Positions 14,738 to 55,792 of a stretch of 64,000 nucleotides of DNA are shown piece by piece. Under the pieces are notes generated by a model. The model did no database searches, was not told the origin of the DNA, and saw nothing but the letters and a program-made list of their open reading frames with translations. Where the stretch lies: assembly GCA_018003315.1 (NCBI GenBank), contig JAGNEJ010000005.1, positions 1 through 64,000 on the forward strand. Direction: 5' to 3'. The stretch is from Verrucomicrobiales bacterium (GTDB lineage: Bacteria > Verrucomicrobiota > Verrucomicrobiia > Verrucomicrobiales > V1-33). Numbering within the stretch: position 1 is the first letter of the stretch; the number at the start of each line of letters is the position of its first letter. The position numbers and the translations under genes are program-made.

Positions 14738-15001
14738 ATGAAAAATCCCATTCGAAAAATCCTTGTGATCCTCTCCGGTTCAGCAGCCCTGCTCCTGCTC
14801 CCAAGCTGCTACCACCATCTGCCCGACTTCGGTCACCACGGCGGAGGATACCATCATTCCTCGCACGGTTACGATCATGGTTACGGTCACGGTTACGATC
14901 ATGGTTACGGTCACGGCCACGGCCACGGTTACGGTCACGGCCATGGTTATGGCCACAGCTATGGCCACGGCCATGGTCACGGCCACGGACATGGTTACTG
15001 A
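14738..15001 (+). CDS. His/Gly-rich repeat lipoprotein
   Basis: 87 residues. A signal peptide with a lipobox (LLLLPSC, Cys at about 26) predicts a lipoprotein. The mature part is almost only His, Gly and Tyr with scattered Ser and Asp, in GYGHGYDH- or GHGHG-type repeats. About one third of the mature residues are His, so binding of nickel, copper or zinc is plausible; this is inferred from composition only. The coding DNA is a degenerate tandem repeat, so the protein length may vary between strains. It is divergent from the SNF2 gene, and its 3' end lies next to a fabZ-like gene on the same strand. A non-coding repeat is possible but unlikely given the well-formed signal peptide. Confidence 0.72.
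   Translation: MKNPIRKILVILSGSAALLLLPSCYHHLPDFGHHGGGYHHSSHGYDHGYGHGYDHGYGHGHGHGYGHGHGYGHSYGHGHGHGHGHGY
14867..14998 (+). repeat. Degenerate GGTTAC/GGTCAC tandem repeat inside the His-rich gene
   Basis: Units such as GGTTACGGTCAC, GGTTACGATCAT and GGCCACGGCCAC recur with 6- and 12-base periods. All unit changes stay in frame and keep Gly with His or Tyr, so the array is under coding constraint or young. Confidence 0.7.
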
Positions 15002-39001: not shown

Positions 39002-39748
39002 TTACATCACCATTCCGCCATCCACCGTCAGCACCTGTCCGGTGATGTAGCGGGCTTCCTCACTGGCCAGAAACAGCGCGGCATGGGCAATGTCCTCGAC
39101 CATGCCAAAGGCCCCCAGGGGAATCTGCGCCAGAATCCCTTTTTTCTGTTCCTCGCTGAGCACGCTGGTCATGTCCGTCATGATGAACCCCGGCGCGATG
39201 GCATTGACCGTCACGCCCCGCCCCGCAAACTCCCGCGCCAGGCTCTTCGTCAGGCCGATCAATCCCGCCTTGCTCGCCGCATAGTTCGCCTGCCCCGCCT
39301 GGCCGATGAGTCCGATCACCGAACTGATGTTGATGATCCGGGCGTTTTTCTGCTTCAAAATCGAACGCTGGAACGCCTTCACCGCATTGAAAGCCCCCTT
39401 CAGGTTGGTGTCCAGCACCGCATCCCAGTCTGCCTCGCTCATCCGCAGTGCCAGACCGTCCCGCGTCACCCCGGCATTGTTCACCAGAATGTCCACTTTT
39501 CCAAAATCCTCCAGAATCCGCTTGCCGGTCTCGGCCATCGCCGCCGTGTCGGCCACATCCACGGCATAGGCCCGCACCGCTCCCGGACGCACCGCGTTGA
39601 TTTCCTCTGCCGCTTTCTGCGCATTGGCCTCGGTGCGGCTCACCACCGCCACGCTGGCTCCAGCCCGCACAAAGGCCTGCGCCATCGCCAGTCCGATGCC
39701 GCGTCCCGCTCCGGTCACCACCGCCACTTTGTCTGTCAGTTGAAACAT
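39002..39748 (-). CDS. fabG: 3-oxoacyl-ACP reductase
   Basis: 248 residues, full length. A short-chain dehydrogenase with NADP-binding VVTGAGRGIGLAMAQ, ILVNNAGVTRDGL and the catalytic set Ser in NISSVIGLIG, Tyr-x-x-x-Lys in NYAASKAG. The C-terminus has GFIMTDMTSVLS and GQVLTVDGGMVM, typical of FabG. It reduces 3-oxoacyl-ACP with NADPH in fatty-acid synthesis. The tail of an upstream mobile-element ORF overlaps its start codon, so its native upstream context seems to have been replaced. Confidence 0.93.
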   Translation of the reverse strand: MFQLTDKVAVVTGAGRGIGLAMAQAFVRAGASVAVVSRTEANAQKAAEEINAVRPGAVRAYAVDVADTAAMAETGKRILEDFGKVDILVNNAGVTRDGLALRMSEADWDAVLDTNLKGAFNAVKAFQRSILKQKNARIINISSVIGLIGQAGQANYAASKAGLIGLTKSLAREFAGRGVTVNAIAPGFIMTDMTSVLSEEQKKGILAQIPLGAFGMVEDIAHAALFLASEEARYITGQVLTVDGGMVM

Positions 39749-39758
39749 GCCGCAAAAT

Positions 39759-39986
39759 TCACCGCACCGTCACCAAAACGCAACCGCGGAAATCCGCCGC
39801 CCATTCGCCCCGCCAACCTCCCGCGGCCACCACTTCCGCAATCACCCGCTGCGCAGCAACTCCCCGCGGCGCAACGCGCCCCCCCAGCGCCGCACTCACC
39901 GGCACGTTCAGCAGGGCATTCCCATGGTGGAAAAACCAAACAGCCGGGCAAAAAAACATCGTATCGCCCCAGCCACGTACCAGCAT
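39759..39986 (-). other. Possible C-terminal gene remnant upstream of fabG
   Basis: A 75-residue frame ends 11 bases before fabG and reads MFFCPAVWFFHHGNALLNVP, then SAALGGRVAPRGVAAQRV. It is in a different frame from the overlapping tail of the polyvalent-protein ORF and has more protein-like composition. It may be the end of a gene broken when the repeat-flanked segment arrived. I could not match it to a family. Confidence 0.25.
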
Positions 39987-40024
39987 TCCCCTGAAACGAC
40001 TTGTCGCTTGCCTGGCAGGAAATT

Positions 40025-40087
40025 GCTTTTGGGGAGGGGCGAGTCGGGTTGAGCCTGGACGTGGAGCGGAGACGGGGTGTGAGGGGG
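40025..40087. repeat. Direct repeat, copy 1, at one edge of the polyvalent fragment
   Basis: About 63 bases, beginning GCTTTTGGGG and ending GGGTGTGAGGGGG. It is roughly 85-87 percent identical to copy 2 at 41666-41727, in the same orientation, with weaker similarity (TTGCC and neighbouring bases) extending about 20 bases further. Protein similarity to polyvalent proteins stops at this edge. Confidence 0.75.
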
Positions 40088-41665
40088 ATCGGCCCGCGGC
40101 TCATCATCTTGCCGATGTCGTTGATGATGGCAAACGCCACCGGTTGGTAGGCCACGGTGATGTCCTCCGGCGTCAGGCTCAGCGCCCGCACCAGGTTCGG
40201 GTCCATCGCCGCCATGCGCCGCTCGAATCCCTCCGCATGCCGCCGCCGCGCCTCCGCTTCCAGGTCCTTCACCAGCGGCAAGCGCGCACTGGCCGCCTGC
40301 CACTGCCGCGCAAATTGAAACACCCGGTCCTGCATCAGGTTCCCGATCTCCCGCCGCGCCTTCGGATCCCCGTGGAACGGAGAAAACATTTCCGTCAGCG
40401 CTCCCGGAATGTCGGCAGCGGGGATGGTGGAGAAGGATTTCCCTCCACCCAAGCCCGTGCGCTCCCGGACGGCTGCGAGTTCCGCCGCGGTGGCCTTGCC
40501 GATTTGCAGGTCCACCACAGCAACCGAACCATCTTCCGCTGCAATCGCATTGCCCGGCGTCTGCACGTCCCAAACGGCAAGTCCCCGCACCGGATGAACC
40601 CACCGTCCGGACGAGGCTTCGACAAAACCCCGCTCCGCCAAGGCACCGCCGGTCTCCTCAACGGTCGCGTCCCTGCCCGCCACAAAAGGCTGGCTGATGA
40701 CCAGACGAAAATCGGCTTCCCCCGGAAGCTGCACCACACCTTCAATCCGCACATCATCACCGAACGTGCGGTTGTGCCAGTCCCAGCGCTCCAAATAAGC
40801 CCCGGCATCATCCCCTTGCGCTCCGGCCATGCCAGGCTTGGTCAGCTTGGCGACCCGGCCGGTTTTCGGATTGAAGAAAACGATGTGCTCACCGCCAGAG
40901 CTTAATTGCTCTTGGCTGGTAAAAATTTCAGGATCAGTGGTTTTGCCTCGCGCTTCTGCCCACGCCACGACTCCGGATACGCTGGCGATTGGTCGCCCAG
41001 GTTTCCGGCGCTGGCTTGCATCTGCGCCTTCGCTTGCTCGAAGGTCACGAAGGATTTTTGCCGGACTGCTGTCGGCTTCGTAGTCATGCGCAAACCTGCC
41101 ACGCGCTGGCTCTTTGGCAATCGAAAACGACTTCACCATCCCTGCCGCTTCCGCGGCCACGGCGCGGTCATAGCGTGTCTGGGCATCCAGGCCCAGAGCC
41201 TGGTCGATCAGGTCGGGCAGCGCCAACCCGTCGAGCTTGCCGCTGGTGCGGGCTTCCTCTATCGCCATCGCCCGGCGGAACACCGCACGCAGAAACGCAC
41301 CCAGCGCCTTGACCATGCCGGCCAGTTTGCCCTTCATGGCACCGCGCCAACTGGGCAGCGGTCCGTCCTTGGCCTGGCTCTTGCCGTAGAGCGTGGCCAC
41401 GGCCACGCGGGAAAAGGCCTCGATCACATGCCGGTCGCTGGTTTGCGCTGCGTCACCCGGCAGCAGTTTCTCTCCCGTGGCCTGCTCGAATTCGCGCAGC
41501 GCGGTTTCCAGGAATTGGCGCTGCCCGCCTTCCAACATCTGTTTGGCAAAGTCTTCGGTGGTTTCCTCCGTGACCGTGAGCGGGCTGTGCCCCTCATACA
41601 GCCGCACCACCACCCGGCGCACGCCTTCCCGGAATTCCGTTTCGCTGTCTGTTTGCCAAGAAACA

Positions 41666-41846: not shown

Positions 41847-43529
41847 TCAGTCCGCTGGCTTCCCGGTTTGATAGGAGCGAAGGGCCTTCTCCAGCAAGGG
41901 AAGGAGTCCGGTTTCACCGGCCCTGGCCGCTTCGATGGCGCGGGCTTCCGTGGCGGCGGCGGATTTGAAATCACCGGCGGCGGCGTGAGCAGCGGCGAGG
42001 GTGTCGAGCATGGCGGCGGACTTGCCGGCGGTCAGGGTGACGGCCCTCTGCGCAAGGGCCAGTGCGCGGACAGGATTGCGCACTGCGGGATCCCGCGTTG
42101 TGACGAGCAGGCCCGCCAGATTGTTGAGCACCGCTGCCGAGTCCGGGGCTTTTTCAAGCGCCGCCTCGTAGGCAGCGACGGCGGCGGCCGGCAGGGCGGG
42201 CGCAAGTTTGCCGCCGAGTGCCCCTGCCATGGTGACGAAATCCTTGTGAGGGCGCAGCGTCGCACGGTGCTGCCGGAAAAAGGCGGCGGCTTCATCCCAC
42301 GACTGCTGCAGCACGAGTTCGTTGAGCCAGAAGGTCGGGTCGGGTGTGTCAGGATCCTGCATCCAGCGGCCCGACCAGGGCAGGGCTGCGGCACTGCGGA
42401 CGGCAGCATCGTCGGCGACGGCGGCGGCGGTGTCGGAAAGGACACGCTCAAGGCTGACGGGTCCGCGGTAAACAGCGGCGAGCCGGCCTTTGCCGTCGAG
42501 CAGAAAGCTGCACGGCACCGGCAGGGAAACGATGGCGCCAAAGAGCCGACGGTGGGCCGTGTTGAGGCGGCGGAAGGCTTCGTCCGTGAGCACTCCGGCG
42601 GGGAATGGGATGCGTTTCTCCTTCAACCATGCGAAGGCGTCGGCGGGCGTGGTGTCGTACTGCGTTTCACGGCCGTCCGCGCTCAGCAGCGCGATGTTCA
42701 GTCCGGCGGCTTTGATTTTGTCCGCGGAGTCGCGCCAGGCGGTGAGTTCCGCAGCGCAGTCCGGGCACCAGGAGGCGAAGACATTCACCAGCAGCGGGCC
42801 TGACGAATCCGTGACGGTCCAGGGCCTGCCACCGGTGCCCCCGGCCGGAAGCGGCGGAAACAGCACGGGATGGAACAGCGTGACCGCACCGGCGAGGTCG
42901 GTTTTCCTGGTTTTCAGTGGGGCGGGTGCCGTCGCGGGTGCGGCATCCTTCAGACTGACGGTTTGAGGAAACGAAGCGCCTTCGACGAATGAAATGGCAG
43001 TGCCGGGGCGGCAGTCCTTGATTTCCTCTGTGGTGCCGCCGGGCCATGTGATGCGCACCGATGCGATGTCCGGCTGCGTGCCGAGCCCGAAATGCAGCCA
43101 CCGGCTGCTCTGACCGAGAAAGCCTTCGCCGAACTTGACGGTGCGGATGATTGGTTTGTCAGGCAGCGCCTTCAGGCGGACCTCCGCGCGGGCGCCCGCG
43201 GCGTCGCGGGCGGCTTTGGTTCCCTCCAGCCGGAGCAGCAGTGAAGGTCCGGCGCGGGGTGTGTCGTTGCGCAGGAAACGCAGCATGGGTGCGGTGCGGC
43301 AGGTCATCCAGACATCCTGATCCCCGTCACCGTCCCAGTCGGTCAGGGCGAGGGCGCGGGCGTCGTCGGGAAAATCAAATCCGCTGACGGCGCTGGCCGT
43401 TGCGAAGGTTCCGTCGCCGAGGTTGAGAAAGGCGCAGTTGGGTTCGTTGCCGCTGAACGAATTGCCGGCATCGATCAGGTAATCCACGCGGCGGATGGCG
43501 CTGCGGTAATCGCTCTTCAGATCGAGCAC
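41847..43529 (-). CDS. C-terminal part of the CRTAC1/ASPIC-thioredoxin-TPR protein (after in-frame TGA)
   Basis: 560 residues from a GTG at 43529, in the same frame as the upstream ORF that stops at 43584-43586. The 18 codons between them read SVFWRQVVSTSPLTPDEK, a continuous protein-like sequence, so this is the second half of one gene of 1180 codons. It holds the end of the FG-GAP propeller (DWDGDGDQDVWM), an ASPIC/UnbV domain (HFGLGTQPDIASVRITWPGG), a thioredoxin-like domain with NVFASWCPDCAAEL, and TPR-like helices at the C-terminus. Independent translation from the GTG is doubtful, since no clear ribosome site precedes it. Either the whole is recoded at TGA or the gene is inactivated. 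Confidence 0.75.
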   Translation of the reverse strand: MLDLKSDYRSAIRRVDYLIDAGNSFSGNEPNCAFLNLGDGTFATASAVSGFDFPDDARALALTDWDGDGDQDVWMTCRTAPMLRFLRNDTPRAGPSLLLRLEGTKAARDAAGARAEVRLKALPDKPIIRTVKFGEGFLGQSSRWLHFGLGTQPDIASVRITWPGGTTEEIKDCRPGTAISFVEGASFPQTVSLKDAAPATAPAPLKTRKTDLAGAVTLFHPVLFPPLPAGGTGGRPWTVTDSSGPLLVNVFASWCPDCAAELTAWRDSADKIKAAGLNIALLSADGRETQYDTTPADAFAWLKEKRIPFPAGVLTDEAFRRLNTAHRRLFGAIVSLPVPCSFLLDGKGRLAAVYRGPVSLERVLSDTAAAVADDAAVRSAAALPWSGRWMQDPDTPDPTFWLNELVLQQSWDEAAAFFRQHRATLRPHKDFVTMAGALGGKLAPALPAAAVAAYEAALEKAPDSAAVLNNLAGLLVTTRDPAVRNPVRALALAQRAVTLTAGKSAAMLDTLAAAHAAAGDFKSAAATEARAIEAARAGETGLLPLLEKALRSYQTGKPAD

Positions 43530-43555
43530 CTTCTCATCCGGGGTCAGGGGCGAAG

Positions 43556-43586
43556 TGGAGACAACCTGCCTCCAGAAGACACTTCA
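43556..43586 (-). other. In-frame TGA with SECIS-like hairpin
   Basis: On the minus strand the TGA (43586-43584) is followed 9 bases later by a 7-base-pair stem, TGGAGGC with GTCTCCA (one G-U), closing a 5-base AGGTT loop. The loop begins 16 bases after the TGA, with G in its second position. Bacterial selenocysteine insertion elements show this spacing and a G early in the loop; the E. coli fdhF loop is AGGUCU, 17 bases after its UGA. An alternative fold pairs GAAGTG with CACTTC outside a 5-base-pair upper stem. Hairpins of this size also occur by chance in GC-rich DNA. Confidence 0.35.
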
Positions 43587-45389
43587 CAAATCGTCCGGGA
43601 TTTCATTCGAGATGAATCCATTGGCGACGAGGAGATCCGGCCAGGCATCCTGGTCCACGTCGGAAAAGAGCGAGGCCCAGCTCCAGCGTCCGAGCGTGAT
43701 GCCGGCGCGGACGCTGACATCGTCAAAGCGGCACTCCGGCGCGGCGAGATTGGCGAAGAGCGTGTTGCCGCGGGCCATGTGGCGGAAGTTGCCGCGCAAT
43801 TCCTCGGGCAGGTCGGGACGGAATCGGTCCTGCGCGGTGATGCGGCTGCCAGCGGAGGAAAACATGGCGCCGAGATGGATGTCCTGCCAGCCGTCGCGAT
43901 TGAAGTCACCGCTGCTGGCGCTCATGCCAAAGGCTCCACCGCGCAGGCCCGCGCTGTCGGCGGCGTCGCGGAAACGCGGCTTTCCGTCAGGGCCGCGTTC
44001 CTGGAGATGGAGATTGTTGCGCCCGAAATCGTTGGCCACGTAGAGGTCGGCGAGACCGTCGTTGTTGAAGTCATCCCAGACGGCGGCGAAACTGAAGCGG
44101 CGGTTGTTGGCATCGAGCCCGGTCTCTGCGGTGGCATCCGAGAAGGTGCGCCAGCCCCGGGCGGGGGCGGGGCCGTCGTTGCGGATTAAAAAGTTAGGCC
44201 CGCCGTTGTTGGCATCGAAGTAAGGCATCGGAACCGCGAGTTCACCGCCCTCGCCGGCGCTGGGATAGTAGCGCACGGCATAGAGGTCGGTGTCGCCGTC
44301 ATTGTCGTAGTCGGCGGCCGCGAGACCGTAGGCATTGAGTACGGGAGGCAGGCGCAGGCGCAGCGCGAACGAGTCCCCGGTGTTTTCGAGAAAGACGAGT
44401 GCGCCCGTGGTTGCCAGGGCGAGGTCGGGATCACCGTCGTTGTCGAAATCGGCGAAAAGCGCGCACTGCGTGCTGTCGAGCACGTCCACCTCCCACTTTG
44501 CGGAGGCATCGGTGACGGTGTGGTCCGGCTGGTGAAGGAACAGGCGATTGGGCAGGCCGCCGGGCTGGCAAACGTAGAGGTCGTCGAGGCCGTCGCCGTT
44601 CACGTCGGCCACGGAGATCCCGTGGTGCCCGAATTTGAAGAACGGCAGGGATGCCTGGAGGCGCAGACGGTAGTGGGAGTTACCGGCGGAAAATTGTTCC
44701 GCCGCCGCAGGCGTGCTGCGGAGCACGGATGCCGTTTGATCCGAAAACCAGGGGCGGGCGGACGGCGTCTCCACTTCCTCCCATGCTTCGCAGGAAAGGG
44801 CGCGGAGTTGCGGTGGACTGCCGGGCCGCCAGGTGGCGCGCCAGGTGGCGTTAACTTCGCAGCGGCCAGCGGGCGACGCGCCGTCGAGGTGGACGAGATA
44901 AACGGTTTGAGCGTCGCCTTTGGCCTGGTCGGCAGGAAGCGAAACGTCCACCGTCTTCACCTTGAGATGCAGCGCCGCGCCGGGCGTGAAGATCGCGCAC
45001 ACCGGAGCGAGGGCGGCGCGCAGCGTCACCGGTTTTGTCGCCTTTGCCGCGCCGCCGCGCCGGACGGTGGCAGTGGAAAGGCGGGCGGCGGGTTTCAAAT
45101 CGGGACGAAAGGCAAAGAGTCCGCGGAGTGTGGCGCTGTTGTTCCGGCCGGCGGCGACGGGTGCGAGCAGCCGCTTTAGTTCCAACTGTGCAAGTTCGGC
45201 GAAGGCTTCGGAGTGCCAGCCTTCCGCCGCCGGCTCGGGCAGCCGGTTGTCATCGGAATCCCGTGGCGCAACAACCGCCGGTTCCGCTGCCGGAGTGGAA
45301 CTGGCAAGACACAGCACCAGGCCCAAAACAACACAACCGGCTGCAGGTGCAGCCGGTTGTGCGAAGCCGTTCAGTTTGCGTGAAAACAC
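43584..45389 (-). CDS. N-terminal part of CRTAC1-like FG-GAP/VCBS repeat protein
   Basis: 601 residues up to TGA. The start at 45389 gives a basic n-region and hydrophobic core (GCVVLGLVLCLASS), a plausible signal peptide; part of that coding overlaps a terminator-like hairpin, so a TTG start farther in is an alternative. From about residue 250 there are FG-GAP/VCBS repeats with calcium-type D-x-D-x-D-G motifs: DVNGDGLDDLYV, DFDNDGDPDLAL, DYDNDGDTDLYAV, DFNNDGLADLYVAN, DFNRDGWQDIHLG, DVDQDAWPDLLVANG. The protein stops at P-D-D-L, inside the propeller, while the same frame continues for 560 more residues downstream. Extracellular location is expected. A beta-propeller without its ASPIC end would probably not fold normally. 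Confidence 0.85.
   Translation of the reverse strand: MFSRKLNGFAQPAAPAAGCVVLGLVLCLASSTPAAEPAVVAPRDSDDNRLPEPAAEGWHSEAFAELAQLELKRLLAPVAAGRNNSATLRGLFAFRPDLKPAARLSTATVRRGGAAKATKPVTLRAALAPVCAIFTPGAALHLKVKTVDVSLPADQAKGDAQTVYLVHLDGASPAGRCEVNATWRATWRPGSPPQLRALSCEAWEEVETPSARPWFSDQTASVLRSTPAAAEQFSAGNSHYRLRLQASLPFFKFGHHGISVADVNGDGLDDLYVCQPGGLPNRLFLHQPDHTVTDASAKWEVDVLDSTQCALFADFDNDGDPDLALATTGALVFLENTGDSFALRLRLPPVLNAYGLAAADYDNDGDTDLYAVRYYPSAGEGGELAVPMPYFDANNGGPNFLIRNDGPAPARGWRTFSDATAETGLDANNRRFSFAAVWDDFNNDGLADLYVANDFGRNNLHLQERGPDGKPRFRDAADSAGLRGGAFGMSASSGDFNRDGWQDIHLGAMFSSAGSRITAQDRFRPDLPEELRGNFRHMARGNTLFANLAAPECRFDDVSVRAGITLGRWSWASLFSDVDQDAWPDLLVANGFISNEIPDDL
45324..45361 (-). terminator. Terminator-like hairpin inside the CRTAC1-like gene start
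   Basis: A perfect 14-base-pair stem (CACAACCGGCTGCA with TGCAGCCGGTTGTG, 2-base loop) is followed on the minus strand by TTGTTTT. It lies 37 bases past the stop of the PEP-CTERM gene at 45399, so it probably ends that transcript, yet it falls within the first codons of the CRTAC1-like ORF. It could act as an attenuator for the downstream gene. Confidence 0.75.
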
Positions 45390-45398
45390 GTTGCAGCG

Positions 45399-46076
45399 TT
45401 ATGCGCGCCGCCGACGAAAGGCAAGGCCGACTGCCATTGCCAGAATGACGGCTGCGGAGGGTTCCGGAATGGCTGTGGCATCCAGTCGAAAATTATCCAC
45501 ATGGAGGCGGATACCGCTGATTTCCTGGACACCGATCCGGATGTTGCCCGTAGGTGCCACGGCACCGGTGGTATAAGTGAAAGTAACATCCCCGAAGGCG
45601 GTGGGAGCCGGAACTGTCAGGGATGTGTCGTAGTCCGTGTACCAGCCGGAGCCAGGTGTGTAGAGACTGTAGGGACCGTCGAAGGGTCCGGGGGAAGGGA
45701 GTGGTTCCAGCGAGGATGCCAAAAAGAAGCGCCCGGTGCCCGCGCCGGCACCGCTGCGGTTTCCGACACCGACGGTGAAGGTATAAGTGGTGTTCGGTGC
45801 CCAGGCGGCACTGAGATTCTGGTAGATCATTCCATACTCGTTGCCGTCAAAACCAAGGTGATTGGAGCCGTCGGAGGCGAATCCGGGGATATGCTCCAGG
45901 AAGTTGGTGTTGTCGCCGCCCTGGGGGTCGGACCACCCAGTGGGAACAGCGTTACTCCAACTGCCGGCACCGAGGATGTCGGTTTCAAAACCGGAATTGG
46001 TGATCGTCACTCCAGCCGCTCCGGAAAAAGAGAGGGTGGACAGCAAAAACATCAGAGACAGAAATAGGGGTTTCAT
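45399..46076 (-). CDS. PEP-CTERM sorting-domain protein
   Basis: 225 residues with a signal peptide (MKPLFLSLMFLLSTLSFSGAA), a beta-sandwich domain with TNSGFETDI and NFLEHIPGFASDGSNHLGF, and a C-terminal PEP-CTERM signal: IPEPSAAVILAMAVGLAFRR followed by basic residues. This signal is processed by an exosortase, with the protein released to the surface or matrix. No exosortase gene is in the window. The beta domain resembles those found in other verrucomicrobial and beta-proteobacterial PEP-CTERM proteins. A terminator-like hairpin follows. Confidence 0.9.
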   Translation of the reverse strand: MKPLFLSLMFLLSTLSFSGAAGVTITNSGFETDILGAGSWSNAVPTGWSDPQGGDNTNFLEHIPGFASDGSNHLGFDGNEYGMIYQNLSAAWAPNTTYTFTVGVGNRSGAGAGTGRFFLASSLEPLPSPGPFDGPYSLYTPGSGWYTDYDTSLTVPAPTAFGDVTFTYTTGAVAPTGNIRIGVQEISGIRLHVDNFRLDATAIPEPSAAVILAMAVGLAFRRRRA

Positions 46077-46241: not shown

Positions 46242-49200
46242 CTAAACCAAACCCCGGCGCACCGCCGCCCGCCGCCCGCGCCAGGTGATGGCACCCAGCA
46301 GCAATCCCGCCGCTGCCACCGCTCCGGGTTCCGGGACGGGGACGAGTTCCACGATGCCGCCGTTCGTGAGAAATTTCGCTCCGCTCCCGATGGCCGTGGT
46401 GCCGCTGTCGCTGTAAAACTGAACATCGGCGAAATCCGTCCCTGCGGTTCCGCTGGTGAAAAGCAGCCTGTCCGTTCCGTTGATGTTCCAGAGTGTCCCC
46501 GTCCAGTTCCACACGGCCAGTTTTTTTCCGGCTGTGACGGACAATGAAGCAAAGGTGATGTCGGCATCACCGCCGCCCATGTCGATGACCGAGTCCGACA
46601 AGAGGGAAAGCGCTCCGGTTGTTTCCGTCACCGTTCCCGAAAATCCGAGCGCTGCAGAACTCAATGAATCGCGGTTCAATTTGACGCCTGCGGCGTTGTT
46701 CAAACGATCGCCCGCGGTGCTCCCGACAAGCAGAGTACCGCCGGTAATGTTGATTTCGGAAGTTTGAGTCAGTGCGCCGGTTCCGGACAACTCCAGCGTG
46801 CCGCCCGAGACCGTCGTCGTGCCGGAGTAGGTGTTGCTGCCGGTGAGGGTTTGCGTGCCAGTGCCGATTTTTGTAAGGGCGAGCGGGCTGCCGCCATTTT
46901 GGATCACGGCTCCTGAGAATGTGCCGCTGCCGCCCGCCGAGCCGACCGTCAGCCCCGTCCCGAGCCCGATCAGCGGGTAGTTCTGGACCGTGCCGCTGCC
47001 CTTGAGCGCATTGATCCTCTCGCTGACGCCGCTGCTTGCGGCGAGCTGGAAAACCGCACCAGCATCGACGGTGACGCTGCTCCCGTCAGGAATCGCCTCC
47101 CCCGCCGTGCCAGCCGTCGGTTGAAGGACCGTGCCTGTGCCGGTGACGAGAATGTCGCCGACGAAATCATTGGCCGGATTCGTGAGCGTGGTGCGCTGGC
47201 CGCCGGTGACCGTGAGTAGGCCGACGTTGCCGGTCACTTTGCCATCGAAGGTCAGCCGGTCGCCCGCGATTTCGCTGCTGAACGTTGTCGCGCGGTTCAG
47301 CGTCACCGTGCCAGTGAAACTCGCCGCATCTGCACCGCTGCCGGTGTTGGTGGCGCCGAGCGTCACCGTGCCGCTGCCTGCGGCACTGACCGTCACCGCA
47401 TTGCCGATGTCCGCACGATTGTTGAGGTAGAGCGCGGTGGTTGCCGCACCGTCGCCGATGGTGATCGAGCTGGTGCCAAAGCCCGTATTCGAGCTGGTCT
47501 CCACGCGGCCCGCGCTGATGACGGTCGGACCGGCATAGGTATTCGCACCGCTCAGGATGAGCTTGCCCGCGCCAGTCTTCGCGAGTGTCGAATCGCCCGC
47601 ACCGTCCCGGATCAAGCCACTGATCGTCAGGTCCGCGTCCGCCGTGCCGTCGGCGACGTTGAGCGTGATAATCTGGGTGGGATGGACTTTGATCAGCTCA
47701 ACAACGGACGCGATCGTATTGCCGTCGTTGCCGCTGAAGGTGTGCGTGACGCCCGCGGGGAGATTTCCCGAGCGAAAACCCGCGGAGGTGGCGCTCGTCA
47801 CCGTGCCATTGGTGAGGTTGAGGGCGTTGATGTAGTTGAGCGCGAGGGCTCCCGTGTTTTTGGAGAAGCGGAGGGTGCCGCCGTTGATGGTGTAGGTGCT
47901 GGTGCTCTTTGTGAGCCAGTCGCCATCGATTTCCAGCGTCGCGGTGGGGTTTACCGTGTAGGTCTGCGCCGTATTGAACGTGCCGTCATCGAAGCCTGCC
48001 GTGCCGGTGAATTTCAGGGTGCCGCCATTGACGGTGATGCCGCCGCTGGCGGAGTTGCCAACCGAGGTGATCGTCTGCGTGCCGCCTCCTTCCTTGCGGA
48101 TCGCGAGGGAGTTGGGGTCCGGTCCATTGAGCAGCAGACCGCTGAAGCTGCCGCTCCCGCCCGCGGAGCCGAGCACCAGCGTTTGCACGCCGCCCACGCC
48201 TTCATGCCGCCGTATCGTGCCGCTGCCGGAAAGGGCGTTGATCGTTTCCACCGATCCGACCGCACCGGCGAGCTTCACCAACGCACCCGGGCCGATGTCG
48301 ATGCTGCTGCCATCGGGGATGTGCTCGCTGCCGGTGGCCACGCCGGTCTGCAGGGTCGTGTTCGTGCCGGTGACGACGATGTTGCCGACGAAATCGTTGG
48401 TGGTGTTGTCGAGAACCGTGCGCTGTCCGCCCGCGATGGTGAGCGTGCCGACGCTGCCGGTGATCTTGCCGGTGTAGGTCGTCCGGTCGGTGCTCGCGGC
48501 GGTGAGCGTCGTCGGTCGGTTCAGCGTGAGCAGGCCGGAGAAAACGAGGTTGCCGCTCGCGCCCGTGGTCGAGCCGATGGTCGCCGTGCCGGTGCCGAGC
48601 GCGGAGACGGTGATCGGCCGCGCGACGTCCGCCGTGGTGGTGAGCAGCGCCACGTTGCCCGCGCCGGTGGCCGCGTCGCCGAGCACCACGCTGGCCGTGC
48701 CCAGCGCGTTCGCGTTGGCGCCGACGTTCACCGTGCCGTTGCTGATCGTGAGCGTGCCGCTGAGCGTGTTTGCCCCGGTGAGCGAGAGCACGCCCGCGCC
48801 GGCTTTCACGTAGCTGCCCGCGCCGGCGAGCACGTTGGCGATGGTGATGTCGTCGCTGCGGTTGTAGGTCAGCGTTGCGCCGCTGGCGACGGTGACCGTG
48901 CCGGTGCCATGCGCGCCGGTGGTGCCGCCGCCGCCGATGGTGAGCGAACCGGCCAGCACATTGGTCGTGCCGGTGTAGGTGTTCGCGCCCAGGAAGACGG
49001 CGTTGCTCGCCTGTTCCACGTTGAAATGCGTCCCGCTGCCCGAGATGACCGTGCCCGCGCCGAAGGTCACCGTCTTGCCGTTCACGCCATAGACGTGGAG
49101 CGTGTTGCCGTTGCCGAAGACGTTCGCGCTGTTGATGACCAGATCGCCGTTGATCGGGTTGAACTCGCCCGTGCCCGGCTGCCCGGTGTTGATCGCCAAG

Positions 49201-49547
49201 TCCATGGCGAGCGTCTGCGTGGCGGTGCTGTAGTTTTCGATTTTGCCGAAAAGATCGATCGCGTTGCCGCTGAGCGAAAACGCTCCTGCGGTGGCGTCGA
49301 AGAAGATCGAGCGGAAATCATCGAAGGCCGTGTAGTTGTTCACCGGGGTGAGCCGCGTGGTGCCCGCGAAGGTGAGGTCCACCGTATTGCCAGGGGAGGG
49401 AGCACCGTCGGGATTCCAGTTCGCACCGGTGCCCCAGTTGTCATCGCTGCCGCCACCATCCCAGGTGGTACCGGAGTTTGCCGCGTGTGCCATGAGCAGG
49501 TAGCCGAAGGAATGGATGAGAATGCGTGAGGGACGTCGGGGAATCAT
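46242..49547 (-). CDS. PEP-CTERM protein with autotransporter-associated beta-strand repeats
   Basis: 1101 residues, Gly/Thr/Ser-rich, with a signal peptide (LIHSFGYLLMAHAANSGTTW) and many beta-helix units of the autotransporter-strand type (for example GAGVLSLTGANTLSGTLTIS, GAGKLILSGANTYAGPTVIS and GTQTLTGSNTYSGTTTVSGG). A module of about 130 residues is present twice, once near 48030-48480 and once near 46830-47250 on the DNA. The C-terminus is VPEPGAVAAAGLLLGAITWR with basic residues, a PEP-CTERM signal. No beta-barrel translocator domain is present, so it is not a classic autotransporter; exosortase would handle sorting. Function on the surface is unknown. Confidence 0.9.
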   Translation of the reverse strand: MIPRRPSRILIHSFGYLLMAHAANSGTTWDGGGSDDNWGTGANWNPDGAPSPGNTVDLTFAGTTRLTPVNNYTAFDDFRSIFFDATAGAFSLSGNAIDLFGKIENYSTATQTLAMDLAINTGQPGTGEFNPINGDLVINSANVFGNGNTLHVYGVNGKTVTFGAGTVISGSGTHFNVEQASNAVFLGANTYTGTTNVLAGSLTIGGGGTTGAHGTGTVTVASGATLTYNRSDDITIANVLAGAGSYVKAGAGVLSLTGANTLSGTLTISNGTVNVGANANALGTASVVLGDAATGAGNVALLTTTADVARPITVSALGTGTATIGSTTGASGNLVFSGLLTLNRPTTLTAASTDRTTYTGKITGSVGTLTIAGGQRTVLDNTTNDFVGNIVVTGTNTTLQTGVATGSEHIPDGSSIDIGPGALVKLAGAVGSVETINALSGSGTIRRHEGVGGVQTLVLGSAGGSGSFSGLLLNGPDPNSLAIRKEGGGTQTITSVGNSASGGITVNGGTLKFTGTAGFDDGTFNTAQTYTVNPTATLEIDGDWLTKSTSTYTINGGTLRFSKNTGALALNYINALNLTNGTVTSATSAGFRSGNLPAGVTHTFSGNDGNTIASVVELIKVHPTQIITLNVADGTADADLTISGLIRDGAGDSTLAKTGAGKLILSGANTYAGPTVISAGRVETSSNTGFGTSSITIGDGAATTALYLNNRADIGNAVTVSAAGSGTVTLGATNTGSGADAASFTGTVTLNRATTFSSEIAGDRLTFDGKVTGNVGLLTVTGGQRTTLTNPANDFVGDILVTGTGTVLQPTAGTAGEAIPDGSSVTVDAGAVFQLAASSGVSERINALKGSGTVQNYPLIGLGTGLTVGSAGGSGTFSGAVIQNGGSPLALTKIGTGTQTLTGSNTYSGTTTVSGGTLELSGTGALTQTSEINITGGTLLVGSTAGDRLNNAAGVKLNRDSLSSAALGFSGTVTETTGALSLLSDSVIDMGGGDADITFASLSVTAGKKLAVWNWTGTLWNINGTDRLLFTSGTAGTDFADVQFYSDSGTTAIGSGAKFLTNGGIVELVPVPEPGAVAAAGLLLGAITWRGRRAAVRRGLV

Positions 49548-49738
49548 GGTTTGTGAATTTGCCTGTCTGATTTTCCTTGAACGGTGCCGGTGGGAAACCC
49601 CGACTGCAGGCAGAAATGCTGCCTAGCATTGCGCTTTACTGCAACGTGGACTTTTTTTTCAAGGGTATTTTTTGAAAAACTGCCCGCCAATGTCTCTGTA
49701 GCAAGAAATTGGCCCTTCTCGGAATGGTGTGGAAATTT

Positions 49739-50090
49739 TCACAGCAGCGAGCGGTCGCGTTTTCCGAGGAGGAAGAGAATGCGGATGCGGTGGTGTGGGA
49801 AGTTGCGGAACCCTCGGGCGGCGGATTTGAGGGCTTGGATGACGCGGTTGAAGCCTACGACCAGGGCGTTGCGGATGAGGTGTGCGAACCAGGTGAGCCA
49901 TCGCGGCAGGCTGGCTTTGAAACGGCACCTAGGCTTCTTCATTGGCTCCAGTCGGCAGCGCTGGCTGCGGCGATGCCACTTCCCAGAATCCGCCGAAACG
50001 CTCCTTGAGCTCCCAGGTCCGCGATTTCTTCAGCGTGAGCCGCGCCAGGGCTTTGAAGCGGGTGGGTTTCTCGGAACTCAAATTCAGGGT
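49739..50090 (-). pseudogene. Decayed ISL3-family transposase (C-terminal part)
   Basis: Two frames on the minus strand read like the end of an ISL3 (IS204/IS1001/IS1096/IS1165) transposase. The upstream frame has FKALARLTLKKSRTWELKER then FGGFWEVA. After a frameshift and an apparent short deletion the downstream frame has CRLEPMKKPRCRFKASLPRW, then WFAHLIRNALVVGFNRVIQ and ARGFRNFPHHRIRILFLLGK. In this family the conserved acidic residue lies in a V-E-G-F-N type motif; here it reads V-V-G-F-N, so even the surviving part lacks the catalytic Glu. The N-terminal two-thirds are absent. It occupies the gap of about 640 bases between the beta-strand repeat gene and the M23 peptidase gene. No terminal inverted repeats were found by eye. 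Confidence 0.7.
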
Positions 50091-50190
50091 GGTGTCTCCC
50101 TGCGCTGCGGTGTTTTCCCTAACGAATCTGTAATGATGCGGGCGGATGTCCGCTGGCCGCTGCGAGGTTTCCATGCCCTGCCCACCGTGT

Positions 50191-51381
50191 TCACTCCCCG
50201 GTGATGAGTTTGAGATAGGCGGTTCCGTGGGCGGTGAGCTGGGCACTGGAGCCGGTGCCGGAGAGCATTTCCCGGGTGTTCCAGAGATGGTTGCCGGCAA
50301 AGGGCTTTACCCAGGTGAGGCGCGGGGTTTCCGTGCGTTCGGACTCCGGGGCGACAGAGAGCGGCACGCCGGAACCCGCGAAGGTAACTTCCCAGGAAGC
50401 GGCGGCCTCACCGGGCAGACGCAGCCACGGATAGCGCAGCACCATCTCCAGCTCGCTGCCTCGGTTGGGGAGACGCACGCGATATCCGGGCTCGCTTTCC
50501 CGGATGAAATCCGAAAGGCGCAGGGTGGGCTGGCGACCGACGGCGAGCAGCCATCCGGCTACATCCAGTCCGACCAGATTCAGCCCGTTCATCGTGGGAT
50601 TTGGCGCGGTGGACGGCGTGACGGTCGCCTCATTCCATTGGGCATGCCTGGCGGAAATCAGCAGGTTCAACTCCACATGGACGTGGGAGCGGCGGCGGTT
50701 GATGCCCGTGCCGGTGTGTCCCATGATGCCGAGCGCCCCGCCGCAGGCGACCTGCTGGCCCGGCACCGCATCCACCCGGGCGAGGTGGGCGTAGAGGCTG
50801 AAAAACGGTCCGCTTTCCGTGGCATGACGCACAATGACGTAGTTGCCATAGTTGCTTTTGCCGGCACTGACATTGGTCATGACCACGAGGCCGTCAGCCA
50901 TCGCGTGGACGGTGTCCAGCGGCTCGCCCTTGCTGTCACGGCGCACTGGCGCCACGTCCATCCCTTCGTGGAAGCGGCTGAAAACCACGGTGCCGTCCGG
51001 GGCTGTTTTTGGGTCCCTGACAAATCCATACATTCCGCCCTGCCAGACTTCCACGGACTGGCCGTTCACCGTCCGGTCCACGAACATGTAGTAGCGGTTT
51101 TCCCTCCCGGCCAGGATGCCGTCGTTGGCCGTTGGAAGCTGAAAGCGCAGTCCACCTGGGGCCGCCGCCGGTGGTCGCTGCCGGACAGGCGGCGGGGCAG
51201 ACAACGGCGGGGGACGCAGCGCCGGGGTTGGGTTTGCTGGCGCGGACGACGGCGGTGCCGTTTGCGCAGCAGCAGCCTGGGGTGTCGTGGCTGCCGGCTG
51301 TCGGAGGCAGCCGCGCGAAAAAACGAGGAAGGCGAGCGAAAATGCCAGCATCGCCACGATGGCCACATGGGAACCCCGCAT
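50191..51381 (-). CDS. M23-family peptidase (LytM-type), membrane-anchored or exported
   Basis: 396 residues. An N-terminal membrane or signal segment (VAIVAMLAFSLAFLVFSRGC) precedes a Pro/Ala-rich linker. The catalytic domain has the M23 metal set: His138 and Asp142 in FHEGMD, and His233-x-His235 in SHVHVELN, plus His199 in LYAHL. It should cut peptidoglycan cross-bridges. The C-terminal region (from WLLAVGRQPTLRLSDF) is a beta-type domain without recognised family. Cys25 could be lipidated. It starts 17 bases after the gene at 51399. Confidence 0.88.
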   Translation of the reverse strand: MRGSHVAIVAMLAFSLAFLVFSRGCLRQPAATTPQAAAAQTAPPSSAPANPTPALRPPPLSAPPPVRQRPPAAAPGGLRFQLPTANDGILAGRENRYYMFVDRTVNGQSVEVWQGGMYGFVRDPKTAPDGTVVFSRFHEGMDVAPVRRDSKGEPLDTVHAMADGLVVMTNVSAGKSNYGNYVIVRHATESGPFFSLYAHLARVDAVPGQQVACGGALGIMGHTGTGINRRRSHVHVELNLLISARHAQWNEATVTPSTAPNPTMNGLNLVGLDVAGWLLAVGRQPTLRLSDFIRESEPGYRVRLPNRGSELEMVLRYPWLRLPGEAAASWEVTFAGSGVPLSVAPESERTETPRLTWVKPFAGNHLWNTREMLSGTGSSAQLTAHGTAYLKLITGE

Positions 51382-51398
51382 GCCGTTGGCTGGTTGCC

Positions 51399-51914
51399 TT
51401 ACTCACCTTCGTCCGGGCGCCGCCGCGAACTTGCCTCGTCCGGCGGCGGTGCGCCCAGTTCCTTGTACTTTGCCCGCAGGGCCTTGACGTCCTCCTCGCT
51501 CAAGCCTTTCCAGACGACGATGGTGTGGTCGTTGCGCCGCGGTTTGTCGATGCGCAGGAAATCCACCGGACGGCCGTTGACGATGACTCGCATCAGTTTT
51601 CCGGAATCGATGGCCGCAGTCTGCAGCAACGACTCCCAGCCGCTGTTGTCCAGTTTGAACGCTGCTCCAAAACTTCCGTCGTCCGCGGGAAACACCGCGA
51701 ATCCCTTGAAATTCTTGTTCGTCACCACCGGTGAAATCCGGAAAAAATGTTTCTTGCCATCCGGCCCTTTTTCCGGGTCCGCACGCACCATGCGCTGGCC
51801 TTCGAATTCGTCTCCCTCCGCATGAAAGGAAACGGACAGACCGGGAGACTTCCCGCCGCCCGGTGCCAGCGCCGGAAGTGCAAACAACCACAACAGGGGG
51901 AGCAATCGCTTCAT
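51399..51914 (-). CDS. Hypothetical exported protein
   Basis: 171 residues from the ATG at 51914, which gives the signal peptide MKRLLPLLWLFALPALA; upstream in-frame starts lack it. The mature part reads VSFHAEGDEFEGQRMVRADP, then GFAVFPADDGSFGAAFKLDN and VIVNGRPVDFLRIDKP, an alternating pattern that may resemble a periplasmic protein-export domain, but I cannot assign a family. The gene precedes the M23 peptidase gene by 17 bases, so it may act in the same envelope process. Confidence 0.7.
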   Translation of the reverse strand: MKRLLPLLWLFALPALAPGGGKSPGLSVSFHAEGDEFEGQRMVRADPEKGPDGKKHFFRISPVVTNKNFKGFAVFPADDGSFGAAFKLDNSGWESLLQTAAIDSGKLMRVIVNGRPVDFLRIDKPRRNDHTIVVWKGLSEEDVKALRAKYKELGAPPPDEASSRRRPDEGE

Positions 51915-52068
51915 CGGCGCACATAGTTCCATTTTCGCGGAACCGGTCAACGGAAATCCCGCCGACGTCACCAGCATCCGCGTGGATCCAGGCGGGATGC
52001 CTGGTAGCGCGGCTTTGGGGGCCGGTTCAGGCAGGGATCGACGGAAGACAACGCCTTGGAACGACTGC

Positions 52069-54024
52069 TCAGTCTGTCCCCTTTTCGCCACAGGAGACGA
52101 TCACCAAGCGCTCCATGGCGCGGGTGCACGCCATGTAGAGGCGGCTGGCGTTGAGCCGGCGATGCCTCCGACGTTCCTCCTCCGGCAGACTGGGATTCTG
52201 CTCGAGATTTCTGAAATCGCGCAGGCCGCAAAGAATGACAACGGGCCGCTCCAACCCGGTCGCGGCATCCAGGGTGCCGAGCAGAATCCGGCTGGACCGC
52301 TCGTTCGGAGGGGCATCCAGATTCGCCGGCTCAAGCCCGGCCCGCATCAGATGGTGGCGCACATCCTCCACCTGACACCGCCGTGCGCAAAGCATGAGGA
52401 TGTCTCCCGGGGGTGCGCCTCCGGCGACCAGTTGCTGGACCTGGCGCACGACGGTGGCGATTTCCTCCTGTCGAGACTCAACCCGGATCTCCACAGGCTG
52501 GGGGCCATTCCGCATGGTGGAATTTTCGATGATTTGCAGGACCGGAGCCTCGGCGTCGTCGCGGACGCACGCTTCGTATCTGGCAGCAGCAAAACTCAGA
52601 ATCTGGAGTGTGTTTCGATAGGGTCGGCTCAGGACGATGGATCGCCCCTTGACCTCAAATCCGGCTTCCCGCCAGGATTGGCCCCGTCCCAGGAATCCCT
52701 GGGCGGGGTCGGCACAGAGAAACAAATGCCCGCCGGGCAGCAGTGCGCTGCGGATGAGCTTGAACCAGGTGGGTGCAAAAAACTGGGCCTCGTCCACCAG
52801 GATGAAATCATAAGGCAGGCCGCGATGGCCCTGGTGCAGCATGCTGAAGGCGCGGCGCGACCAGTCGGTGACGCCCGCGGTGTCGAGCCTGCGGGAGTAT
52901 TCCTCAAGCAGTTGAAAGATGGCCGAACGCTGGGTCTCGCGGAGGGCCTTGGTGCGGCCGGTGCGGGGCGTGCGGAGGTATTCTTCGACACGTTGCAGCC
53001 CCTGGTCGTGAATCCAGTCGAACTCGTCCTTGAGAAAGCGAGGATCGTAACGGCTCTCCGGAAGAAAGGAATCGCGCTCGTAATCCTTGAGCACGCGCCC
53101 CGCCCCTGGCCAGCGCCTGCCCAGCCACGAGTAGAATGTCAGGAACTCCACTCCGCCGCTGCCGCAGATGCGCTGAAAGCGACCTTCCAGATCGGAGCAC
53201 AGGGCGCGGTTGTGCGTCAGCACGGCAATGCGGGCGCTGGGGTGAAATTGTCTGAGCATCGCCGCACGGTGGACAAGCACCACGGACTTCCCGGTGCCGG
53301 CGGCCCCGGTGATGAGCCGCAGGGAAAAATTGCCTGCGGCCTCCCGCCCTTCATCAGGCAGCCACAGGTCCAGTTTGACGCAGCGGTCCTGGTCGTAATC
53401 CAGAAGCTGGGGCAGCAGGGACAATTGTTCTTCCCCGCGGTGCCGACGACGCTCGGTGGCGCTCGGAGGTGCCGGCTGGATCACCGTTTCCGGCGCCAAA
53501 AACGCACGCAGCAGGGTCAGGTGCTCTTCGGTGACCGCAGTATGAACCGGAATGCGCTGCCACGCGCTCAGGAGGCGGGCCGGTTGAGCGGATTCCTTTC
53601 CGGCCAGCAGCACGTCATCCATGTCCAGGGCCGGCCACTGGCGGCGCAGTTCAGCCTCCGGCCAGAATGGGCATGCGATCATCAATGCCGGAGCCGCCGA
53701 GATCGCACCACTGGCCTCTTTCCATGCCTGTTGAATCTCCCGCAGGCGGGCCGCCAGAGAGGAAAGGCTGCAGGGCAACGCTGCCGGGTCGAAGAGCTGG
53801 CCTGCGGCATCCGGCGGCCCTGCTTCCGCGCTCACCGCCAGGCAGGCGATGCGCCCGCTCTTGTCCGAGACAAGAAAGTCCGGCCAGCCACCGGCAGAAA
53901 CACGGGCCTCCCGCAGTTTGGTCATGACCAGCCCGTGCGACTTCAAACTCAACAAGGCCTTGCCGACCACCTTGACGGCATCCAGCCTGCGGCGCAGCCG
54001 CGCTTTGTTTTCATTAAAAGACAT
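52069..54024 (-). CDS. SF1 (UvrD/Rep-like) DNA helicase, second of a coupled pair
   Basis: 651 residues from the ATG at 54024, which overlaps the stop of the upstream helicase gene (11-base overlap), so translation is coupled. Walker A LITGAAGTGKSVVLVHRA near 240-250; Walker B ILVDEAQFFAPTWF near 410; motif III LCADPAQGFLG; motif IV RPYRNTLQIL; and motif VI LYMACTRAMERLVIVS near the end. Residues 1-200 are an unassigned, basic N-terminal domain with a possible nuclease-like fold (GGWPDFLVSDKSGRIACLAV), but no catalytic set can be confirmed. It pairs with a UPF1/DNA2-like helicase, an arrangement seen in some DNA-repair and anti-phage loci. Confidence 0.85.
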   Translation of the reverse strand: MSFNENKARLRRRLDAVKVVGKALLSLKSHGLVMTKLREARVSAGGWPDFLVSDKSGRIACLAVSAEAGPPDAAGQLFDPAALPCSLSSLAARLREIQQAWKEASGAISAAPALMIACPFWPEAELRRQWPALDMDDVLLAGKESAQPARLLSAWQRIPVHTAVTEEHLTLLRAFLAPETVIQPAPPSATERRRHRGEEQLSLLPQLLDYDQDRCVKLDLWLPDEGREAAGNFSLRLITGAAGTGKSVVLVHRAAMLRQFHPSARIAVLTHNRALCSDLEGRFQRICGSGGVEFLTFYSWLGRRWPGAGRVLKDYERDSFLPESRYDPRFLKDEFDWIHDQGLQRVEEYLRTPRTGRTKALRETQRSAIFQLLEEYSRRLDTAGVTDWSRRAFSMLHQGHRGLPYDFILVDEAQFFAPTWFKLIRSALLPGGHLFLCADPAQGFLGRGQSWREAGFEVKGRSIVLSRPYRNTLQILSFAAARYEACVRDDAEAPVLQIIENSTMRNGPQPVEIRVESRQEEIATVVRQVQQLVAGGAPPGDILMLCARRCQVEDVRHHLMRAGLEPANLDAPPNERSSRILLGTLDAATGLERPVVILCGLRDFRNLEQNPSLPEEERRRHRRLNASRLYMACTRAMERLVIVSCGEKGTD

Positions 54025-55792
54025 GTTCAAACCGGGCAGCGCTTTCCAGCAGCGAACGGAACAGCAGGGCATCCTCCGCCGCTTCAGGCTCCTGCGGATG
54101 ATACCTGGCCAAGGCGGTGGATGCCAGCACGATGGTTTTGGTTCGGGCCCGGGTCACCGCCACGTTCAGGCGGTTGGGCTGAAAGATAAAACCGGCATGG
54201 CGCAGGAGAAACAGGGGTTCGGAAGTGGCCAGCGACACGATGACCACTTCACGCTCCTGGCCTTGCAGCCGTTCCACCGTGTCCACCACGCAGCGCCGCG
54301 AGGCCTCCTCCGGCAGCCTCCCGCGCAAATGATGCCGGATGCGGCGGGCCTGTTTCCGCCAAGGAACTACGATGGCGATTTCCTCCGGCGGCAAGCCGCC
54401 ATCCTGCACCAGGGCGGCCACCAGTTTCGCGGCGGCCAGCGCCTCCTCATCCTGCATGACCTGCCCGTCGGCATGCTCAAAGGCCACCCATGCCAGCGGG
54501 TGTGCCGCATCCAGCACCGGCGCCAGCGGTCCGCGCACCGTCCGTGGCAGTGAAAGCCTGCGCTCTTTCACCCCCGGTGCCGGCTCCAGTTGTCCCTGAT
54601 AGAACATGTCTGACGGCCAAGCGGTCAGTTTCCCATTCATGCGGTAGCCGGTATTCAGCATCGTGGTCTCCGCCAGTTGCGACAGCATTCGGAAGCACGA
54701 CCATTCCCGGGCCTCCCGCTGGTCCACGCTGGTTAGGACGGGACCGAGCTGCTCGCCGTCACCGAAGAACAACCACTTCCTTCCAGTTAGCATGGCCATC
54801 ACCGCCAGCGGCATGGTCATTTGCCCGGCCTCATCCACAATCACCCGGTCAAATTCCACGTTCCGCAACCGCGACGCCAGCACAAACGGAGTGGCTCCCA
54901 CCGCCCACCCCGCGTCATCCAGCGCCAGCGGACATTCGCAAAAACGTTCGTAATTCCTCCAGGCCGAATGGCGGGTATAGACCGGCCTGCCGACCTTCAC
55001 AACGCGGTCCGCTTCCCCCAAACGAGCCACCACGGCATCCAGCGCATGGTGGATGGCCCGGTGGGTAAAGGAAGTGATGAGCACCCGTTCGCCGGCCCGC
55101 ACGCAGCGGGTTGCCAGTTCCGCCAAGGCGCGGGTCTTTCCCGTGCCGGGCGGCCCCTGCACCAGATGACAGCACCGGGCGCAGAGGCATTCGGCCACCG
55201 CATCCCGCTGCCGCTCATTCATTTGGGAATCCGCCAACGCCTCATACTGCTGCAAAAAATCCGCGGCATCCCCCAGCTCGTCACCCTCCAAAAACGGGAG
55301 AATGCACTCGCGCCCGATGGCTGTCTGCGTCACCGCTTCCAAGGCACGCAGGTAGATCACTTCCAAGTCCAGGTCATCCGCGTCCACCACACACTCGCAC
55401 CCCGCTGCGGTGATCCAGGAATCGTCCCATGTTCCGCCCGTGCACAGTTTCAGCCAGATGGCATGTTCCTCCTCGCGGAACAGCGTGGCCCGCCTGCATC
55501 CCAACGACTCCGCAGCGCTGCTGACTCGCACATAGTCCCCCTCCCGCAGCCGGGATTCGTTCCCGTCGCTGAGCGAAAATTCGGCAACGCCCGGATCTCG
55601 TTTGTCACACCCGCGCCAGCGCAAGCCTGCCAGACACCAGCCATCCTCCACTCGTTCGCGAAGCGGTTTCGCCATGCGACGCTCATACTCCGCTCGTCGC
55701 GCGGCCGATTCCTCCCGCACCAACTGGCGCATGCGGTCGATCTGCTCAAGACCGCTCAGGATTCGGAAATTTTTTGGAATGATTGATCGCAT
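54014..55792 (-). CDS. SF1B (DNA2/NAM7/UPF1-like) helicase, first of a coupled pair
   Basis: 592 residues. Walker A VQGPPGTGKTRALAELA near 210-220; THRAIHHALD motif Ia; Walker B VIVDEAGQMTMPLA near 321; motif III FFGDGEQLGPVLTS; motif IV TGYRMNGKLTAWPS; motif V VVDTVERLQGQEREVVIVSL; and motif VI NRLNVAVTRARTKTIVL. This matches the AAA_11/AAA_12 helicases that move 5' to 3' on DNA or RNA. The N-terminal 190 residues hold a beta-barrel-like region (EGDYVRVSSAAESLGCRRAT). Its stop overlaps the start of the second helicase. No nuclease or methylase gene is adjacent. Confidence 0.9.
   Translation of the reverse strand: MRSIIPKNFRILSGLEQIDRMRQLVREESAARRAEYERRMAKPLRERVEDGWCLAGLRWRGCDKRDPGVAEFSLSDGNESRLREGDYVRVSSAAESLGCRRATLFREEEHAIWLKLCTGGTWDDSWITAAGCECVVDADDLDLEVIYLRALEAVTQTAIGRECILPFLEGDELGDAADFLQQYEALADSQMNERQRDAVAECLCARCCHLVQGPPGTGKTRALAELATRCVRAGERVLITSFTHRAIHHALDAVVARLGEADRVVKVGRPVYTRHSAWRNYERFCECPLALDDAGWAVGATPFVLASRLRNVEFDRVIVDEAGQMTMPLAVMAMLTGRKWLFFGDGEQLGPVLTSVDQREAREWSCFRMLSQLAETTMLNTGYRMNGKLTAWPSDMFYQGQLEPAPGVKERRLSLPRTVRGPLAPVLDAAHPLAWVAFEHADGQVMQDEEALAAAKLVAALVQDGGLPPEEIAIVVPWRKQARRIRHHLRGRLPEEASRRCVVDTVERLQGQEREVVIVSLATSEPLFLLRHAGFIFQPNRLNVAVTRARTKTIVLASTALARYHPQEPEAAEDALLFRSLLESAARFEHVF

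Follow-up and report, generated by a model that had tools for sequence, protein, structure and literature searches.

A predicted selenoprotein family of CRTAC1-like propeller proteins, usually with a tethered thioredoxin domain, in Verrucomicrobiota and other phyla

In the 64,000-nucleotide stretch of Verrucomicrobiales contig JAGNEJ010000005.1 (assembly GCA_018003315.1) analysed here, referred to as the window, two minus-strand open reading frames at 43584-45389 and 41847-43529 lie in the same frame, with just a TGA (43584-43586) and 18 open codons between them. The locus raises the question of whether this TGA reflects a damaged gene, a planned end of translation or a codon read as selenocysteine (Sec, U). 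A first-pass annotation had taken the two frames as one gene with a TGA at codon 602, and this assignment was borne out: the read-through frame encodes 1180 amino acids and the TGA is its sole break. On the comparative sequence evidence reported below, we hold with high confidence that 41847-45389 would be a single selenoprotein gene, belonging to a Sec-bearing clade of CRTAC1-like proteins, with UGA602 decoded as Sec; insertion of Sec at this codon appears very likely.

Such a codon could also arise in an ordinary CRTAC1-like gene by recent nonsense mutation, for which a one-base change suffices, or by an error of assembly, the genome being a draft of 155 contigs. Thirteen genomes from the same family were searched for read-through frames, and the homologues were aligned codon by codon. 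TGA occupies exactly the column of codon 602 in about 20 same-family homologues from several genera, three of which belong to this same genome (contigs C84, C6 and C16), within the motif D-L-U-S-x-x-W-R-Q-V-V or a close variant. The frame downstream of the TGA is conserved as protein. Cysteine in homologues at this junction, named in the first-pass annotation as a sign of Sec, was found as TGC in four divergent homologues (L012-L015), in the context D-Y-C-T-K-F-W-C.

The motif was then used as a search pattern. With TGA fixed, it matched 18 of 20 chosen genomes, while the reversed pattern gave no matches. A codon-blind pattern, D-L-x-S-x-x-W, returned the same counts as the TGA-fixed one in all 18 genomes, so that every one of the 149 sites is TGA. 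In a codon-blind run over 387 genomes of the order, only three non-TGA sites were present among the matches listed, and these look like chance matches. A scan of a genome collection with the TGA pattern yielded at least 111 contigs. Four loci (L137, L140, L153, L159) proved to be chance matches to the pattern and were removed; all others, more than 100 from independent assemblies, are read-through CRTAC1-like frames with a TGA. Among the matches listed, titles include Verrucomicrobiales, Akkermansiaceae and Roseibacillus for Verrucomicrobiota; Pirellulaceae, Planctomycetaceae and Mariniblastus for Planctomycetota; and Holophagales, Bryobacterales, Thermoanaerobaculia and Terriglobia for Acidobacteriota; one matching metagenome-assembled genome is labelled Proteobacteria. 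Mutation or assembly error does not account for a TGA that recurs at this site in many independently assembled genomes from different genera and from three phyla, and the probability of this explanation is close to nil; the objection of a single-base nonsense change, raised in the first-pass annotation, is thereby refuted.

In a tree of the shared region the 127 Sec members group together as a single clade (support 0.90), which splits into a type A (support 0.91) and a type B (support 1.0), with the four Cys forms falling outside; the sample was drawn with the TGA pattern, and the tree gives no fair count of Cys replacements, for which the codon-blind search, within its motif, is the fairer test. 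Strict-motif copies number 10 to 15 in some genomes, 15 being the highest count in one genome. An estimate of at least 16 copies per genome was dropped in favour of the pattern counts, as similarity-search candidates can include non-Sec matches. In several genomes, two convergent B-type Sec genes lie about 1.7 kb apart, measured from TGA to TGA (L214:7307-12601, L217:5566-10813, L166); the pair in L214 is located near DUF1501 and PSCyt1/DUF1549/DUF1553 genes and an AraC-type regulator.

A bacterial Sec codon is expected to be followed by a selenocysteine insertion sequence (SECIS). When the 24 nucleotides from 43577 to 43554 of the minus strand are folded alone, an 8-bp stem with a GGU loop is obtained, with a folding energy of -10.3 kcal/mol; z is -2.4 when dinucleotide-shuffled sequences serve as the reference and -3.1 when the peptide is recoded synonymously. 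The stem-loop described in the first-pass annotation thus stands, but its 5-base AGGUU loop does not, since a closing A-U pair had been counted as unpaired. Scored against published criteria for bacterial SECIS elements, the window hairpin qualifies (GGU in the loop, 8 bp in the stem, a spacing of 17 nucleotides, -10.3 kcal/mol); the complete set of features was found at 120 of the 134 family TGA sites, compared with 26 of 877 TGA triplets taken arbitrarily from the window. The stability of the family hairpins likewise exceeds that of synonymously recoded sequences, with a mean z of -2.04 versus -0.14 in control windows.

In B-type genes the stem is shifted by one base and the loop is GGUC, which makes covariation over all genes pooled misleading; A-type genes were therefore analysed apart. 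In these, the third base of an Arg codon, which the protein sequence leaves free, is paired to the first position of a codon 10 nucleotides downstream in 96 of 100 cases versus 75.8 after shuffling, a comparison to be read as a guide and not as a probability, the sequences being related. The combinations are G or A before UCG (Ser), G before CCG (Pro) and mostly C before GCG (Ala). The pairing of this wobble base is kept in the relatives, and the hairpin is hence under selection at the RNA level. The register of the window hairpin is slightly unlike that of most A-type genes. The SECIS of E. coli formate dehydrogenase likewise has a small, G-U-bearing apical loop on a stem soon after the UGA, but in another protein context and with another stem sequence. 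In an Rfam scan, the sole match at the site was one to an S15 leader, below threshold and on the opposite strand; it was discarded.

The genes for Sec synthesis and insertion, whose presence the first-pass annotation had made a test of its proposal, are all found in this genome: selB (287 bits), selA (497 bits), selD (374 bits) and a tRNA-Sec with anticodon UCA. Among the 387 genomes of the order, selA is present in 50 of the 54 with at least two motif copies and in 68 of the 333 others (Fisher p about 3e-25, a value which overstates the case because related genomes are not independent). The gene was likewise found in 11 of 13 genomes that carry loci labelled Planctomycetota, Acidobacteriota or Proteobacteria. 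These data bear on a further explanation, by which the UGA would be a planned termination or a regulated read-through point, yielding a short product of 601 residues and a longer one in which an ordinary residue such as Trp is inserted. Any UGA can be misread, and some truncation at UGA is expected under selenium shortage; against this, the hairpin fits the SECIS model with its pairing kept, the sel genes co-occur with the motif, and homologues with a sense codon carry Cys, not Trp. We consider this explanation very improbable.

The selD gene of this genome (L047:1501-2421; G000:C124:17903-18823) matches the selD model with one in-frame TGA, and is probably itself Sec-containing. A candidate second tRNA-Sec beside it (L039) was rejected, being a tRNA-Ser(UGA).

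The features of the gene are collected in Table 1. Pfam searches assign FG-GAP repeats upstream of the TGA and ASPIC and AhpC-TSA domains downstream, the last in agreement with the thioredoxin-like C-P-D-C domain of the first-pass annotation. In an AlphaFold2 model derived from 41 members (predicted local distance difference test score, pLDDT, 87; predicted template modelling score, pTM, 0.88), Sec602 is placed at the start of helix 601-612, inserted between propeller strands. The best solved match found by Foldseek is murine CRTAC1 (9etn; E 5.6e-26, target TM-score 0.73), followed by ResA and TlpA for the C-terminal domain. D600, L601, U602, S603, W606, R607 and V609 are invariant in the 41 members. 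Of the 83 Sec proteins whose C-terminus is complete, 76 carry a thioredoxin domain, whereas none was found at 19 non-Sec paralogue loci, made up of the four Cys homologues and 15 further CRTAC1 loci; the proposal that the CxxC domain serves the Sec is founded chiefly on this distribution. Most family members lack a UxxC or CxxU motif. A small B subgroup with D-L-U-S-C-[FY]-W (L135, L166, L186, L191) has a Cys two residues after the Sec and no thioredoxin domain after it; this Cys may be the subgroup's own resolving partner of Sec.

Table 1. Features predicted for the candidate selenoprotein gene, in window positions.
Feature	Position	Strand	Basis or remark
Whole selenoprotein gene (predicted), UGA read through, 1180 amino acids	41847..45389	minus	GTG start at 45389 (putative); stop 41847-41849
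UGA codon 602, probably read as selenocysteine	43584..43586	minus	TGA in the same column in homologues; codon-blind motif sites
Likely signal peptide, residues 1-37, hydrophobic stretch GCVVLGLVLCLASS	45279..45389	minus	By eye; low model confidence for residues 1-39
CRTAC1-like FG-GAP propeller and ASPIC region, residues about 255-815	42945..44627	minus	Pfam; Foldseek
Helical insert within the propeller, residues 601-640; first helix with Sec602 near its N-terminus	43470..43589	minus	AlphaFold2 model
SECIS-like hairpin, 8-bp stem, GGU loop starting 17 nucleotides after the UGA	43556..43574	minus	
ASPIC/UnbV domain (PF07593)	43002..43202	minus	Pfam
ResA/TlpA-like thioredoxin domain	42474..42836	minus	CPDC motif at 42756-42767, residues 875-878
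C-terminal helical repeats, TPR-like, residues 1018-1174	41868..42338	minus	Secondary structure of the model; weak TIGR02917 (TPR) match, below cut-off

Several points weigh against the selenoprotein interpretation or parts of it. Cys forms are few and divergent, and the wide contig sample, gathered with the TGA pattern, is by itself no measure of their rarity. Many assemblies in the sample are metagenome-assembled. In four multi-copy genomes no selA was detected; completeness is 53-77% for three of these and about 90% for the fourth, G199. The thioredoxin domain is undetectable in seven of the 83 Sec members, and hence not obligatory.

The mechanism most consistent with these observations is the following. 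UGA602 would be decoded as Sec by the organism's own SelA, SelB and SelD together with tRNA-Sec, the downstream hairpin acting as a SECIS element bound by SelB. The Sec would lie where an inserted helix of the propeller begins, within a protein to which, as is usual in the clade, a ResA/TlpA-like CxxC domain is attached. The proteins of the clade are probably exported; the Sec may form a redox centre outside the cytoplasm, acting on an oxidised substrate, and be reduced again by the tethered thioredoxin CxxC domain. For the Sec, a role as redox centre assisted by the attached domain seems the most likely function, and its re-reduction by that domain in particular is somewhat favoured. Alternatively, the protein would still be a selenoprotein, but its Sec would have a structural or metal-binding, non-redox role in the propeller, and the thioredoxin domain would act on other targets. 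FG-GAP propellers bind metal, and the seven members without the domain agree with such a role; the strong tie of the domain to Sec forms, and the position of Sec near a helix start in the model, where a reactive selenolate is usually found, argue against it. This alternative is unlikely, while retaining appreciable weight.

Just upstream of the gene, the window contains an HpiC1-like protein and a passenger-type (PATR) repeat protein (45399-46076 and 46242-49547, minus strand), both with a weak PEP-CTERM match at the end. Pfam gave no match for long open frames of 628, 206, 559 and 735 amino acids at 39736-41622 (minus) and 49584-54189 (plus). At 14864-14988, short tandem repeats (6, 12, 24 and 30 bases) are clustered.

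Comparison with known systems defines what is particular to the redox propeller proposed here. With the CRTAC1/UnbV-ASPIC proteins (murine CRTAC1 9etn; PF07593, PF13517) it shares an FG-GAP propeller followed by an ASPIC domain, to which the window protein adds the predicted Sec at D-L-U-S-x-x-W in a helical insert, an N-terminal region, the thioredoxin domain and C-terminal helical repeats. The ResA/TlpA thiol-disulfide oxidoreductases resemble its C-terminal domain in fold and CxxC, but in the window protein this domain is one part of a large propeller protein and the Sec would lie outside it. Thioredoxin-fold selenoproteins (UxxC/CxxU; Redoxin and UGC-containing TlpA families, PMC13188914 Table 1) have in common with it a UGA with bacterial SECIS, decoding by SelA/B/C/D and a link to thioredoxin, whereas here the Sec would be in the propeller, outside the thioredoxin domain.

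An inventory of 2026 lists 119 prokaryotic selenoprotein families (PMC13188914), its table taking in those of Haft and Tolstoy 2025; none of the 119 is an FG-GAP, CRTAC1 or ASPIC entry, families without an NCBIfam identifier having been aligned in part. No selenoprotein-family model of NCBIfam release 20 matches the window protein above cut-off. A literature search, with subscription papers and supplements outside its scope, returned no relevant report on a selenoprotein with CRTAC1, UnbV or FG-GAP, or on Verrucomicrobiota selenoproteomes. It is thus quite probable that the clade is an uncatalogued, old and diversified family of Sec-bearing CRTAC1-like propellers with a tethered thioredoxin domain, found in Verrucomicrobiota, Planctomycetota and Acidobacteriota and multiplied in some genomes to 10-15 copies. 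The published bacterial record is 46 selenoprotein genes in one whole bacterium (PMC12013277), to be compared with the maximum of 15 strict-motif copies in one genome for this family alone. As UGA is taken for a stop, selenoproteins are difficult to annotate, and the Sec site may wrongly divide many public gene models in two. A family this large, absent from the inventory and from the NCBI family models tested, would alter what is understood of how Verrucomicrobiota and Planctomycetota use selenium, and would offer a testable redox function for the little-understood CRTAC1/UnbV-ASPIC fold. If the proposal is true, some Verrucomicrobiota would be selenoprotein-rich mainly through one family, within which Sec appears to be retained and would hardly ever have been exchanged for Cys.
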